64,000 nucleotides of DNA from Fuscovulum ytuae (GTDB taxonomy: Bacteria > Pseudomonadota > Alphaproteobacteria > Rhodobacterales > Rhodobacteraceae), in assembly GCF_029953595.1 (NCBI RefSeq), contig NZ_CP124535.1:3331001-3395000 (forward strand), in the 5' to 3' direction. Numbering within the stretch: the first letter of the stretch is position 1; every line of letters begins with the position of its first letter. This document shows positions 51,284-56,141 of this stretch, in pieces. The notes beneath the pieces are model-generated. The model searched no databases. It had not been told where the DNA came from and saw nothing but the letters and a program-made list of their open reading frames with translations. Made by a program: the position numbers and the translations under genes.

Positions 51284-51760
51284 TTAGATTCGTCCGAGAT
51301 TTGGCAGGCCATTCGTTACGGGCGACCGGTCGAGACCTGCCAGATGATCCACCGAAATTCGCCCTGGCCCCCGTGCCGCAACGGCAAGAAGGCAGGCGGC
51401 CCAGAGTCCGTGGGTTTGCCATGCCTCGGGATAGACGAAGATCTGGATAACGGCGGTCATTCCCAAGAGGCCGAGCGCCGAAAGGCGGGTGGCGATGCCA
51501 AGGATCAGGAGAATCGGCAGGACATGTTCGGCCACGGTGGCGGCAACGGCGGCAAATGGGGACGGAATCAGGGGGAGGGCATATTCATGTTCGAACAGGA
51601 ACCACGTGCTGTCGGCAATCTGCCAGCCCTCTACCTTGGTGCGGCCAGAGGCGAAGAAGATGGCGGCGGGAAAGACCCGTAAGGCAAAGGCGGGGATGTC
51701 CCATGTCACACGATCGAGCAGGCCATTGATCTGGCGCAGAAGGCCGGTTGCAGAGGTCAT
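51284..51760 (-). CDS. DoxX-family membrane protein of the buf operon
   Basis: 158 residues, four membrane segments. [19 protein letters not shown] and [37 protein letters not shown] are DoxX hallmarks. DoxX proteins (BufD) are common in bufferin operons with BufA, B and C; their role there is unproven, perhaps redox or membrane functions. The ATG overlaps the bufC stop by four bases. Confidence 0.9.
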
Positions 51761-52518
51761 GGGGCATTCCTTTCGATCAGTCCGGTGATGGTGCCGGTAT
51801 GGGCGAGTTGGGCAAGGAGGGGGCCGGGGTCGGCCCCTTCGGCGGCTTGGGCAGCCATCAGGAGCGTGTCGCCGCGAAGAAGGGCGGCGAGGAAGGCCGC
51901 TTCGCCCGATGGCAGGGCGATGACGGGCACCCGGTCTGCCCGGTTGCGCAGGACCATCGCATCTTCAGCGAGATCGGCGCGGATCGGGCGTTCTGGCGCG
52001 GATGCGCCGGGTTGATTGGCCTGCCAGATGGTCACGACGGCATGGCGCGAGCGCAGGATTTGCACGGATGGGTGCAGGGTAAGGGCAAAGCGCTGGGGTG
52101 CGGTGGCGGCTGCGGTAAGCGCTTCTGCCTGAAGGGGGGATGCGTCGGCGGCGTGATAGGCCAGCCCGCGCATCCATTCGAGACGGGCCACATCGGGCAG
52201 ATAGGGCAGGTCGCGCAGGGGGCGGAAGCCTTGCAGGAAGGCGGGAAAGGTTTCGCCCCAAAGAAAGAGGCGCGGGTCGCGGGGCGGATGGTCGCGCAAG
52301 AACAGCCGCGCCATGGCGGCAAAGAATTCCGGGCCGACAAGGCGTTCGACCACCGGATAGCGGCGAGCGAGGGCCCGCGTCAGGCTGTGGGTCACGTTGT
52401 TGCGGTAGACGGCGAAGCGGGTTTCAGCCTCGTCCGCCGCGCGGGCGGTGACGCCGGGGGGAAGGCTGCCGTCGAAAAGGCCGGCGCGGAAGGCGGGCAG
52501 GGGATCGGCGGCTTGCAT
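51757..52518 (-). CDS. bufC: BufC/HvfC-type partner protein (DUF2063)
   Basis: 253 residues. The N-terminal DUF2063 domain (about 7-95) shows [62 protein letters not shown], the usual block of the family, and a C-terminal winged-helix-like region follows. The family is the partner of DUF692 enzymes in bufferin and related systems, recruiting the precursor to the enzyme. The start lies next to the stop of bufB, sharing one base. Confidence 0.92.
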
Positions 52519-53366
52519 CAGGCGGCACCTTTCAGGTGATCGGCCTGCCGGGCGAGGATTTTGGCGGCACGCGCGGCCTCGTCCATCAGGGTTGCGAAGG
52601 GGGGGATGTCATTGTCCCATTCGATAAGGGTAGGCAGGGGGCCTGCATCGGCGATCACCTCGGCATAGAGCGTCCAGACGGGATCGGCGACGGGGCTGCC
52701 ATGATCGTCGATCAGGAGGGGGCCGGAAGGCAGTTCTTCTTCGGCATGGCCGCCGAGATGGATTTCGCCCACATGCGACAGGGGAAAAGCGGCCAGCCAA
52801 TCGCGCGGGTCGCGGCGATGGTTTGTGCAGGAGACGAAGACGTTGTTCACGTCAAGCAAGAGGCCGCAGCCCGTGCGGCGGGCGATTTCGGCGAGAAAGG
52901 CGGGTTCGTCGATGCTGGACTGTTCAAAGAGAATGTAGGTGGAGGGGTTTTCCAAGAGCATCCGGCAGCCGAGGGCGGCTTGCACTTCGTCGATATGGTC
53001 GCAAATGCGGGCAAGCGTTTCGGGCGTGTATGGTAGGGGCAGGAGGTCGTTGAGATAATCGCCGCCATGGCTGGACCATGCGAGATGTTCCGAGAAGGCC
53101 GCGGGTTCATAACGGCGGATCAGGTCGCGCAGGCGTTGAAGATGAGCGGCGTCGGGGCGGTCGGTCCCGCCGATAGAAAGGCCGACACCATGCAGCGAAA
53201 GCGCATAATCCTGCCGCAGCGCGGCCAGTTGGCGATGGGGCGCACCGCCTGCACCCATGTAGTTTTCGGCATGAACCTCGAAAAAGCCCAAGCTTGGCAG
53301 GGTCAGGCAGATGGTATCGAAATGTTCGGCTTTGAAGCCGAGGCCGGGAGAAGCGGGCAGGGTCAT
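52518..53366 (-). CDS. bufB: BufB-type multinuclear iron enzyme (DUF692/MNIO)
   Basis: 282 residues, a TIM-barrel multinuclear non-heme iron-dependent oxidase. Metal-binding motifs of the family are present: HGVGLSIG near residue 59, FSEHLAW near 91, LENPSTY near 139, [11 protein letters not shown] near 169, HLGGHAEEE near 204, DDHGSPV near 219 and LIEWDND near 247. In bufferin systems this enzyme modifies cysteines of the BufA precursor (to thiooxazole-type products). It lies 57 bases after bufA, with a strong stem-loop between. Confidence 0.94.
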
Positions 53367-53392
53367 GGCGCGGGGCCTTTCGCTGAAAGGGA

Positions 53393-53415
53393 GGCCGGGG
53401 CGCGATGCCCCGGCC
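53393..53415 (-). promoter_or_regulatory. Perfect 9-bp stem-loop between bufA and bufB
   Basis: GGCCGGGGC, loop GCGAT, GCCCCGGCC in the bufA-bufB gap. No T-run on the minus strand. It is placed to favour bufA transcript over the rest of the operon, giving excess precursor over enzyme. Confidence 0.8.
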
Positions 53416-53423
53416 TTTGGGCA

Positions 53424-53702
53424 TCACGATTCGATGGGGTCCAGCGAGCCCATGCCATTGGGCGTTTCCATCGTGGTGCAGGTCCCGGCGGGGACGAGTT
53501 TCCAGGCATTGCCCTGATAGTCGACGGTCGAGGTGCCTGCACAGGTCGTGCCCGGGCCGGCGGCGCAGTCATTTTGGCCAGCAAGTGCCACGCCATAGCA
53601 TTTTTCCATCGCGTCTTCGGCGTGCGAGGCGGTGGCGGCGGCCATGGTCAGCGCGGTGGCGAGCGTGGCCGTGAGGGTCAGGGTCTTGTCGATCATGGAC
53701 AT
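53424..53702 (-). CDS. bufA: Bufferin-type secreted precursor (DUF2282, BufA1-like)
   Basis: 92 residues. An N-terminal Sec signal ends near SHA-ED (residue 28). The mature peptide has four cysteines, C35 ([14 protein letters not shown]), C46, C54 ([13 protein letters not shown]) and C75 (VPAGTC), the DUF2282 pattern of Caulobacter BufA1-like bufferins, which chelate copper after modification by BufB. AAGGAG seven bases before the ATG fixes the start. The C-terminus ends in an unusual [15 protein letters not shown] tail. It is the first gene of the buf operon. Confidence 0.93.
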
Positions 53703-53753
53703 GTGTTTGCTCCTTGTCAGACGCAGTTGGAAGGAAAGGCCTTGATGCGGCCA

Positions 53754-53770
53754 AGGACCGCTGCGGTCCT
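53754..53770 (-). repeat. 17-base palindrome at the buf transcript start
   Basis: AGGACCGC, one base, GCGGTCCT: perfect 8-bp arms just downstream of the predicted buf transcription start, within the mRNA leader. Could be an operator or a leader hairpin. Confidence 0.6.
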
Positions 53771-53779
53771 CGGTGCGTC

Positions 53780-53807
53780 CTTTCGCGGCAGGGTCGGGGG
53801 GCGTTAC
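53780..53807 (-). promoter_or_regulatory. SigF-type ECF promoter of the buf operon
   Basis: On the minus strand GTAACG (53807-53802), 16 bases, CGAAAG (53785-53780). It agrees with the -35 GTAAC and -10 CGAA pattern reported for Caulobacter SigF targets, recalled from memory. It sits 78 bases upstream of the bufA ATG and divergent from a SigF-like gene. Confidence 0.78.
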
Positions 53808-53935
53808 TGTCGATCACGCTCTGGTGTTCGAAATTATGGAAAACGCGGGCTTGCGTGAGCGGTTTGAAACATTTCTGCTGTAGCGGACGGTGGGTCTGTA
53901 ACATCTTGCGCGGCACTGCGTAGGGACAGGGTGGA

Positions 53936-54481
53936 ATGGCGACGCGCGAAGCTGAATGGTCGGCGCTGCTGATTGCGGCGATGGAAGGGGACGGGCGTGC
54001 CTATGCCCGGTTCCTTGGGCTTGTGACGCCTGTCCTGAGGGGCATCGTCCGGGCCCGTGGCCGTGTCTTGGGGCCGGAAGCGCAGGAGGATGTGGTGCAG
54101 GAGGTGTTGATCGCCATCCACACGAAGCGCCACACATGGGACCGCACGGCCCCCCTGTTGCCGTGGCTTTATGCGGTGACGCGGCACAAGGTGGTGGATG
54201 CCTTCCGCCGAAGGGGCGGGGCGGTGCATCTGCCCATCGAGGACTTCTCCGAGGCCTTGGAAGCCGAGGCTGAGGGCGATGTTATGGCGGCGCGCGACAG
54301 CGCTGTCTTGATTGGACGGCTGGATGCGCGGTCGGCACAGATCGTTCAGGCGGTCAGCCTGGATGGATTGAGTACAGCCGAGGTTGGCGCGCAGTTGAAG
54401 ATGAGCGAAGGCGCGGTGCGTGTGGCCTTGCACCGGGCGATCCGCCGGATGGCGGATATTGCGAAGGGACTGGAAAGATGA
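53936..54481 (+). CDS. ECF sigma factor, SigF-like
   Basis: 181 residues. Region 2 (about 25-95) has EDVVQEVLIAIHTKRHTWDRTAPLLPWLYAVTRHKVVDAFRRR, and region 4 (about 125-178) has the helix-turn-helix GLSTAEVGAQLKMSEGAVRVALHRAIRRM. It matches the SigF class paired with NrsF anti-sigma factors. AGGGTGGA precedes the ATG. The stop overlaps the anti-sigma gene by four bases. A GTAACA, 15 bases, CGTAGG element upstream (53898-53924) could be an autoregulatory site, but it is too close to the ATG to be convincing. Confidence 0.92.
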   Translation: MATREAEWSALLIAAMEGDGRAYARFLGLVTPVLRGIVRARGRVLGPEAQEDVVQEVLIAIHTKRHTWDRTAPLLPWLYAVTRHKVVDAFRRRGGAVHLPIEDFSEALEAEAEGDVMAARDSAVLIGRLDARSAQIVQAVSLDGLSTAEVGAQLKMSEGAVRVALHRAIRRMADIAKGLER

Positions 54482-55113
54482 GGACGGATGATCTGATCGG
54501 GCTTCTGGCAGCGGATGCGCAGCCGTCCCCGCCGCTGCGTCCGGCGCGGATCGGCGGTGTCGCGGTTGCGGGCATCCTTGCGGCGGTGGCGTTGTTTCTG
54601 ACGCTGGCCGGGATGCGGGACGGGCTGGCCACTGTGATGCAGCGACCTGAGGTTCTTGCTAAGACGCTGCTGCCGTTGATCCTTTTTCTTATGGCCTTGC
54701 CTTGGGCACTGCGGCAGATGCGGCCCGACGCAAGCACGCCGCCTTGGGGTTATGTCGCGCTGCCGGTGGCGGTTGCGGTTGGGCTTTGGGTCTGGGCCTT
54801 TGCGGTTTTGCCGCCACCTTTGCGCTTTGCCGAACAGATGGGGTCGGCCATTGTGGAATGCCTTGGCTTCATCCTGCTTTTGTCGCTGCTGCCGCTTGGG
54901 GTTTTGTTGTGGATGATGCGTCAGGGCGCGAGCGAGAACCCGATGCGCGCGGGGGCCTTGGCAGGGCTGGCGATTGGTTGCGGAGTGACGGTGGGCTATT
55001 CGTTGTTTTGCACCAAGGACAACCCGATCTTCTATGTCACCTGGTATGGTGTGGCGGTGCTGCTGGTTACGGGGATCGGGGCGCTGGCGGGGCGGCGGAT
55101 GCTGCGCTGGTAG
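54478..55113 (+). CDS. NrsF-type membrane anti-sigma factor (DUF1109)
   Basis: 211 residues with six membrane segments (about 25-45, 62-80, 93-112, 125-146, 158-175, 186-206) and a short cytoplasmic N-terminus (MRTDDLIGLLAADA) that binds the sigma factor. C128 (VECLG) and C178 (LFCTKDNP) are 50 residues apart, the same spacing as the two cysteines needed for metal sensing in Caulobacter NrsF; C168 is extra. Probably holds the sigma factor at the membrane until metals or redox stress release it. Confidence 0.9.
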   Translation: MRTDDLIGLLAADAQPSPPLRPARIGGVAVAGILAAVALFLTLAGMRDGLATVMQRPEVLAKTLLPLILFLMALPWALRQMRPDASTPPWGYVALPVAVAVGLWVWAFAVLPPPLRFAEQMGSAIVECLGFILLLSLLPLGVLLWMMRQGASENPMRAGALAGLAIGCGVTVGYSLFCTKDNPIFYVTWYGVAVLLVTGIGALAGRRMLRW

Positions 55114-55116
55114 GCG

Positions 55117-55986
55117 TCAGAACCACTGACCGGGTTCCATCAGGCCAAGGTCCATCAACTGCTGTGAATGCCACTCGAAAGGGGTTGAATTGTGCCAGCG
55201 GAAGCTGGTGATTTCCCATTTCGAGCCGGGATTGGACTTGAGCGCCTTGGCCGTGCGGAACGAGCAGACCGCGGCGGTCAGGTTATTGTGCCACGGACAG
55301 GCATAGGTGTTGTATTCCTCGTCCGAGAAGGTGAAGTCGGGGCGAAGGACAAGGTCCTTCTTGGCCTTGAAGATCGAGATGCGGTCGATGTTGCGCCGGG
55401 ATTTGGGAACATGTTCTTCGAATCGCCAGCGCAGGCCGCCGAAGAAATCCAGTTGCCGTTCCTTGGGGTGCCAGTGGTTGTCGGGGTCGGGGCGGGCAAG
55501 GGCGTAATAGCCGGACCGATCCAGATGGGCGGTTTCAAGGCTGACGGCGGAAGGGTGGCGGTCAAGGTCACCGGCGTAGAGATCGACGACATAGGTGAGC
55601 ATGGCGTCGCGCCGTTCTTCGGCATGAAAGGTAAGAACGTCGCGGACCGTGCGCGCTTCGCAGAAGGGATGAAAGAGGTATTCCGCGTTGAAGCAGTAAT
55701 ACATCCATATGCCGGGAAAGGCCGCGATCAGCGCGTTCACAGCCCCCGGCAGGGCGTTTTCGGAATGGACGTTGTGATCTATGCGGTGAATTTGCGGATC
55801 GAGTTCCTTAGCCACCGCGATCTCGGGCGGGGCGAGGAGAAGGACCGGGGCAAAGCCCGCGCGCAGATGGTGGCGGAGGGTGGTATCCACCTCGACCCCG
55901 TCTTCGGCCATGATGATGGCCATCGGCCCTTTGGGCGGCGTGGCCGCCGTGCTGGCGATGTAAGCTGACAAAGACCCGTGCTGCAT
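55117..55986 (-). CDS. Uncharacterised protein, possibly glycosyltransferase-like
   Basis: 289 residues, no signal or membrane segment. The opening, [35 protein letters not shown], is a Rossmann-like strand-helix pattern seen in family 2-type glycosyltransferases, but no clear DxD motif was found. Trp, His and aromatic residues are dense in the second half ([34 protein letters not shown]), which I do not recognise. ATG at 55986 has AGGG upstream. It is divergent from miaB, with 155 bases between starts. Confidence 0.6.
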
Positions 55987-56141
55987 GCACCCTGCCCGAA
56001 CTGCACCTGTGCGGCCCTTTGTGGCCGTTCGCGGCGCAGAGTCCGGCATGGCCCGCGCCGATGCAAGCCCTTTGGCGGCGCGTCGATTGCGAAATCCGGC
56101 GATTTGACTATATGGGGCGCTTGCGGATCACGGGGGGCGAG

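Follow-up and report, generated by a model that had tools for sequence, protein, structure and literature searches.

A probable Buf1-type bufferin operon with a dedicated SigF/NrsF switch in Fuscovulum ytuae

Introduction

The pairing of bufferin operons with a SigF-type sigma factor and an NrsF-type membrane anti-sigma factor has already been published for Caulobacter, Sinorhizobium, and Cupriavidus. Here, we describe a further case in Fuscovulum ytuae (Rhodobacteraceae), in a stretch of 64,000 nucleotides of contig NZ_CP124535.1 (the window; coordinates are positions in it) from a genome of 4,185,011 bp. In Caulobacter crescentus (vibrioides), SigF-NrsF goes together with CC3254-CC3257, which represent the same four families as the F. 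ytuae operon, adjoin sigF-nrsF, and have a GTAACC-N16-CGAA promoter. Copper induces the SigF regulon of this bacterium, and a sigF::Tn5 mutant is copper-sensitive (PMC8224329). Furthermore, replacement of C131/C181 in its NrsF increases the expression of SigF targets (PMC3511200). In Sinorhizobium meliloti, RpoE7-EcfR7 (group ECF16, of the extracytoplasmic function [ECF] sigma factors) stands beside SMb20530-SMb20527, a DUF692/DUF2063 operon, with GTAACA...CGAA promoters for both (PMC6180224); the gene numbers suggest that the two are divergent. Cupriavidus metallidurans has similar kinds of genes in gigPABT, divergent from rpoQ-rsqA, and copper and gold induce gig, but neither a dependence of gig on RpoQ was shown nor a gig promoter identified there (PMC10304878). 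Sigma factor and NrsF genes were reported in Buf1, not Buf2, clusters (PMC12452194). The modified residues of such peptides have been assigned as 5-thiooxazoles, and the name captophorins was proposed (PMC13097082).

Results

A bufferin operon divergent from sigF-nrsF

The locus is very probably a Buf1-type bufferin (captophorin) operon with a dedicated SigF/NrsF switch. The bufABCD genes are divergent from sigF-nrsF (Table 1). The initial annotation had given this order, with the strands and families of all six genes between 51284 and 55113, and searches with Pfam and NCBIfam models agree with it throughout; a count of the residues also gives the four cysteines that it saw in the BufA precursor. 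The genes are tightly packed: bufA and bufB are separated by 57 bp, and the ends of bufB and bufC, of bufC and doxX, and of sigF and nrsF overlap. The only DUF2282 match and the only PF05114 match of the genome are at this locus. BufB scores 381.6 bits with the bufferin maturase model of NCBIfam (NF050167, MNIO_BufB; cut-off 310), and SigF is just above the cut-off of NF009165 (199.7 versus 198 bits). The precursor does not belong with Buf2, which has Buf_6/12Cys precursors, since it has four cysteines; the BufA2 model NF050166 gives it 22.3 bits (cut-off 60). Its N terminus, read by eye, is hydrophobic with a plausible cleavage site, resembling a signal peptide.

SigF-type promoters

The proposal that the buf genes are under SigF control had been based on a GTAACG-N16-CGAAAG promoter. 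This exact site is present 77 nt before the start codon of bufA, and in the form GTAAC-N17-CGAAA it is unique in the whole genome, where the reversed control pattern has 9 matches. The relaxed pattern GTAAC-N16-18-CGWA has 18 genome matches (183 for the reversed control), two of which belong to this locus and precede bufA and sigF, respectively. The site before sigF was absent from the initial annotation. Its end is separated from the sigF ATG by 13 nt, so that either the true start codon or the exact promoter may deviate somewhat from this prediction. Because sigF carries its own copy of the SigF-type site, it may drive its own operon.

Across relatives, the SigF-type promoter and nrsF tend to occur together, which points to SigF control of the buf genes. 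Our family set has 149 genomes, with DUF2282 in 106 and NrsF in 23 (22 above the cut-off), and 100 of the 106 buf loci were compared. An nrsF match lies within ~5.5 kb at 14 of these loci, F. ytuae included. One of the 14 (L050) has a gene that is cut short; we counted it as linked, and the loci with a complete nrsF neighbor are 13 of 100. The divergent order of F. ytuae is found in 11 of the 14 linked loci and very probably in L042 too. Within 260 bp and on the same strand as bufA, a GTAAC-N15-18-CG[ATG]A site is present in 12/14 linked versus 1/86 unlinked loci (Fisher p 1.1e-12, ignoring relatedness). On either strand, the site occurs in 3 of the 86 unlinked loci, and on the sigF side it occurs in 11 of the 14 linked ones. 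Most linked relatives do not keep the final A of CGAAA, but the core CGAA is kept. In the BufB tree (FastTree), a single well-supported group takes in 11 of the 14 linked loci; L125 is next to this group, and L110 and L043 are placed in other parts of the tree.

Two further sets gave similar pictures. Among the best 80 of 158 confirmed NrsF loci in named records, 47 have bufA; the site precedes bufA in 41 of them and is on the opposite strand in 28. This set overlaps the family set, and at least three loci (L218, L223, and L281) are probably in both. Two relatives in this set, Gemmobacter caeni DSM 21823 and Tabrizicola rongguiensis J26, have the divergent arrangement of F. ytuae. In a class-wide set of the 29 best-scoring loci, with flanks of 1.5 kb, the site precedes bufA in all 8 loci with nrsF and in 3 of the 21 without it (one of the three has sigF).

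The remaining 33 of the 80 NrsF loci (e.g., L225, L217, L236, and L233) have sigF-nrsF with a stored flank that lacks bufA; some of the stored contigs are short. In the vicinity of some of these pairs are genes with representatives that have MsrB, MsrA, DsbD, or cytochrome b561 domain matches. A SigF-type site is near the start of sigF in 22 of the 31 such loci with a sigF match. A record titled Exiguobacterium profundum metagenome-assembled genome (MAG; L235, CP059262.1) has a sigF-nrsF-buf locus of the Rhodobacteraceae type and is probably misnamed or misbinned.

Additional SigF targets were sought at 73 sites: the 18 relaxed matches in F. ytuae and 55 GTAAC-N16/17-CGAAA matches in the 13 other linked genomes (151 for the reversed control). 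Among the matches listed in these other genomes, the bufA site appears only in G114 and G026. In the 48 of 73 sites examined, the downstream open reading frames (ORFs) recurred only for bufA, in F. ytuae itself and G026. At L178, a bufA site, the procedure picked the wrong ORF; hence, this search can miss targets. The Caulobacter regulon also includes CC2907-CC2905 and msrPQ, whereas F. ytuae has one buf operon and, in this partial test, no second recurrent SigF target.

The cysteines of NrsF

The two NrsF cysteines noted initially, 50 residues apart as in Caulobacter, are indeed there (C128 and C178 in F. ytuae, C131 and C181 in Caulobacter). They are invariant in 13 complete NrsF sequences, that of F. 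ytuae included; an alignment of ten sequences was also made. A 14th sequence, the truncated NrsF of L050, was dropped from the alignment. The start of its frame is intact, but unrelated sequence follows, owing to either a rearrangement or an error in the assembly. The third cysteine of the F. ytuae protein, C168, is not conserved. A hydropathy scan gave several overlapping stretches resembling transmembrane segments, of which an NrsF protein would be expected to have six. The nearest named relatives of this NrsF are from Rhodobacteraceae, with 76% identity in a MAG and 62% in Tabrizicola sp. TH137.

The precursor and its maturation proteins

The initial annotation regarded the C-terminal tail of BufA as unusual, but its length turned out to be ordinary among relatives. 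It has 18 residues from the last cysteine to the end, and the medians are 21 in the 14 nrsF-linked family loci, 28 in the 86 unlinked ones, and 19 in the class-wide set (range, 10 to 28; n = 29). The GSL in BufA is common to 89 of the 100 family loci. A structure model of BufA was uninformative (predicted local distance difference test [pLDDT], 50), and a sequence search of the PDB with BufA at E 1 gave zero matches.

BufB can be aligned with MbnB and with DUF692 proteins of solved structure. Ten of its residues (H59, H94, E139, D172, H203, H207, D220, H222, E249, and D251) are kept in at least 96 of 99 BufB sequences of the family, and we take conserved His, Glu, and Asp residues of this type to be iron ligands. 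For BufC, a sequence search of the PDB at E 0.001 gave zero matches. Its AlphaFold model, built from 29 sequences, has a pLDDT of 94, and the only Foldseek matches of this model at E ≤0.001 are the TglHI structures 8hi7_A (1.2e-6) and 8hci_A (3.0e-6), and NGO1945 (3dee; 2.2e-5), which is named as a partner protein in PMC13097082. The predicted fold thus agrees with the known partner proteins of multinuclear nonheme iron-dependent oxidative enzymes (MNIOs).

Another motif in relatives without nrsF

Most of the 86 unlinked loci among the 100 of the family (L033-L132) have another conserved motif ~100 bp before bufA, with the consensus cCTGACGcgcgCGTGAnaCACGGgctCGTGAaTgg and the form TGACG-N4-CGTGA-NN-CACG-N4-CGTGA. 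Its exact core, GTGA-N11-GTGA, occurs in 46/86 unlinked and 0/14 linked family loci, and in none of the 29 class-wide loci. We built a matrix from these 46 loci and counted as matches the scores above the top score of 200 base-shuffled upstream regions. Matches were found in 72 of the 86 unlinked loci, including 26 of the 40 not used in building the matrix, and in 1 of the 14 linked loci (L050); thresholds of 0 and -3.7 alike give 72 unlinked loci. Hence, this motif and the SigF-type site are nearly exclusive among family loci. A TA follows the second GTGA by 25 nt in 40 and by 24 nt in 16 of the 72 loci, a count made without a control. The motif keeps its distance to bufA (standard deviation [SD], 13 nt); its distance to thrS has an SD of 460 nt, in which outliers weigh.

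The gene thrS, identified from a Pfam match of one representative, is in the fetched flank of 73/86 unlinked versus 1/14 linked loci. This linked locus, L043, has nrsF and sigF between thrS and bufA and lacks the alternative motif, making it a likely case of regulator swap at the thrS-buf address of many relatives.

The exact core has 39 matches in 36 of the 149 genomes (2 for the reversed control), of which 20 precede bufA, 14 are one identical sequence, and 5 are elsewhere. The identical sequence, viewed in L182 and L190, is inside a coding frame, presumably of a ribosomal protein S4-like product. Among the five other matches we did not find a common target; one precedes a response-regulator gene, a possible link. 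The motif may be the site of an activator, i.e., of a putative additional regulator. Our literature searches, judged mostly from the openings of abstracts, brought up no recognized description of it.

Table 1. Genes and predicted promoters of the F. ytuae locus
Feature	Coordinates	Strand	Evidence
bufA1, DUF2282 bufferin precursor, 92 aa, 4 Cys	53424..53702	-	PF10048 E 5.5e-27, 93.9 bits (cut-off 22.4)
bufB, MNIO (DUF692) maturase	52518..53366	-	PF05114 (MbnB_TglH_ChrH) E 4.9e-105
bufC, DUF2063 partner protein	51757..52518	-	PF09836 E 5.9e-24, 84.6 bits (cut-off 27.2)
bufD, DoxX-family membrane protein (doxX)	51284..51760	-	PF07681 E 3.3e-17
sigF, ECF sigma factor	53936..54481	+	PF04542 and PF08281 (sigma-70 regions 2 and 4)
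nrsF, membrane anti-sigma factor, C128 and C178	54478..55113	+	PF06532 E 6.4e-45
Predicted SigF-type promoter of bufABCD, GTAACG-N16-CGAAAG	53807-53780	-	Exact sequence match; core kept in relatives
Predicted SigF-type promoter of sigF-nrsF, GTAAC-N16-CGTA	53898..53922	+	Relaxed-pattern search

Beyond nrsF and convergent with it, an ORF of 310 aa on the minus strand (55117-56049) matched nothing in Pfam or NCBIfam searches at E 0.001.

Discussion

The resemblance of this locus to the studied systems suggests how it could work. The membrane protein NrsF, with its pair of conserved cysteines, would hold SigF. Metal stress in the envelope, most likely from copper and possibly from other metals, would act on NrsF and free SigF, which would then transcribe bufABCD, and probably its own operon too, from GTAAC-N16/17-CGAA or CGTA promoters. 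BufB and BufC would oxidatively turn the central cysteines of BufA into 5-thiooxazoles, a change that lowers the mass by 4 Da for each cysteine. The Sec pathway would export the BufA peptide to the periplasm, where copper would be bound. The metal signal, the release of SigF, the autoregulation, the modification, the export, and the binding of copper are all drawn by analogy from the relatives in which such systems have been studied.

Several points weigh against this reading. NrsF, BufC, and DoxX stay below the equivalog cut-offs of the related NCBIfam models that they match (79.6 versus 300 bits for NF042994, 55.8 versus 142 for the HvfC model NF050145, and 48.6 versus 80 for the HvfX-family model, respectively). 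The related loci that were counted are not independent of one another. Furthermore, the literature on the described systems is not uniformly favorable: strong autoregulation of Caulobacter sigF was reported to be lacking under metal stress (PMC3511200), though sigF is raised by copper (PMC8224329); neither rpoE7 of S. meliloti nor its target showed a response to Cd, chromate, or H2O2 (PMC6180224); and in C. metallidurans treated with metals, gig expression went up when rpoQ was deleted (PMC10304878).

The nature of the inducer leaves some room for another explanation. The same operon and regulator could respond naturally to thiol-oxidative or other envelope stress, or to metals other than copper, with copper binding being secondary. 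We consider this unlikely. The 33 NrsF loci without bufA, some of them close to MsrA, MsrB, or DsbD matches, would fit such an inducer, as would the control of msrPQ by Caulobacter SigF and its response to Cr and Cd (PMC3511200, PMC8224329). Yet, these orphan loci are separate systems, some on short stored contigs, and the SigF targets of Caulobacter were not induced by agents generating reactive oxygen species (PMC3511200), but were induced by copper (PMC8224329). It is much harder to argue that SigF/NrsF is not the main switch and that bufABCD is chiefly transcribed from another promoter, as is probably the case in most of the family relatives examined. The alternative motif of 72 of the 86 loci without an adjacent nrsF makes such a promoter conceivable, but the F. 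ytuae locus scores -19.9 for it, below the 95% level of shuffled sequences (-8.0), and the genome has no exact core, whereas the SigF-type site is exact and its core is kept in relatives. As for a chance match between two operons that are neighbors by accident, we give it almost no credence. It is true that, when one mismatch is allowed, the window by itself has 1 match where 1.18 were expected, which is not significant, and that the loose pattern occurs 18 times in the genome. However, the sole exact GTAAC-N17-CGAAA of the genome is at the right place and on the right strand, its core is kept across relatives, and the comparative data already contradict an accident.

A dedicated SigF/NrsF switch at the buf operon of F. 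ytuae adds one more bacterium to the known pairing, and the comparison yields a clean promoter footprint for the SigF/NrsF-bufferin system. For the family as a whole, we lean slightly toward a scheme in which the bufferin operon has two nearly exclusive controls. One would be SigF/NrsF with GTAAC-N16/17-CGAA, and the other a putative, undescribed activator binding the alternative motif, with a TA-containing element resembling a -10 box 24 to 25 bp further on; at the thrS-buf address there would have been at least one exchange of regulators, in L043. If the alternative motif is real, it points to a further regulator common to most of the family bufferin operons examined, and the question of what induces bufferins could be addressed from two independent sensors.

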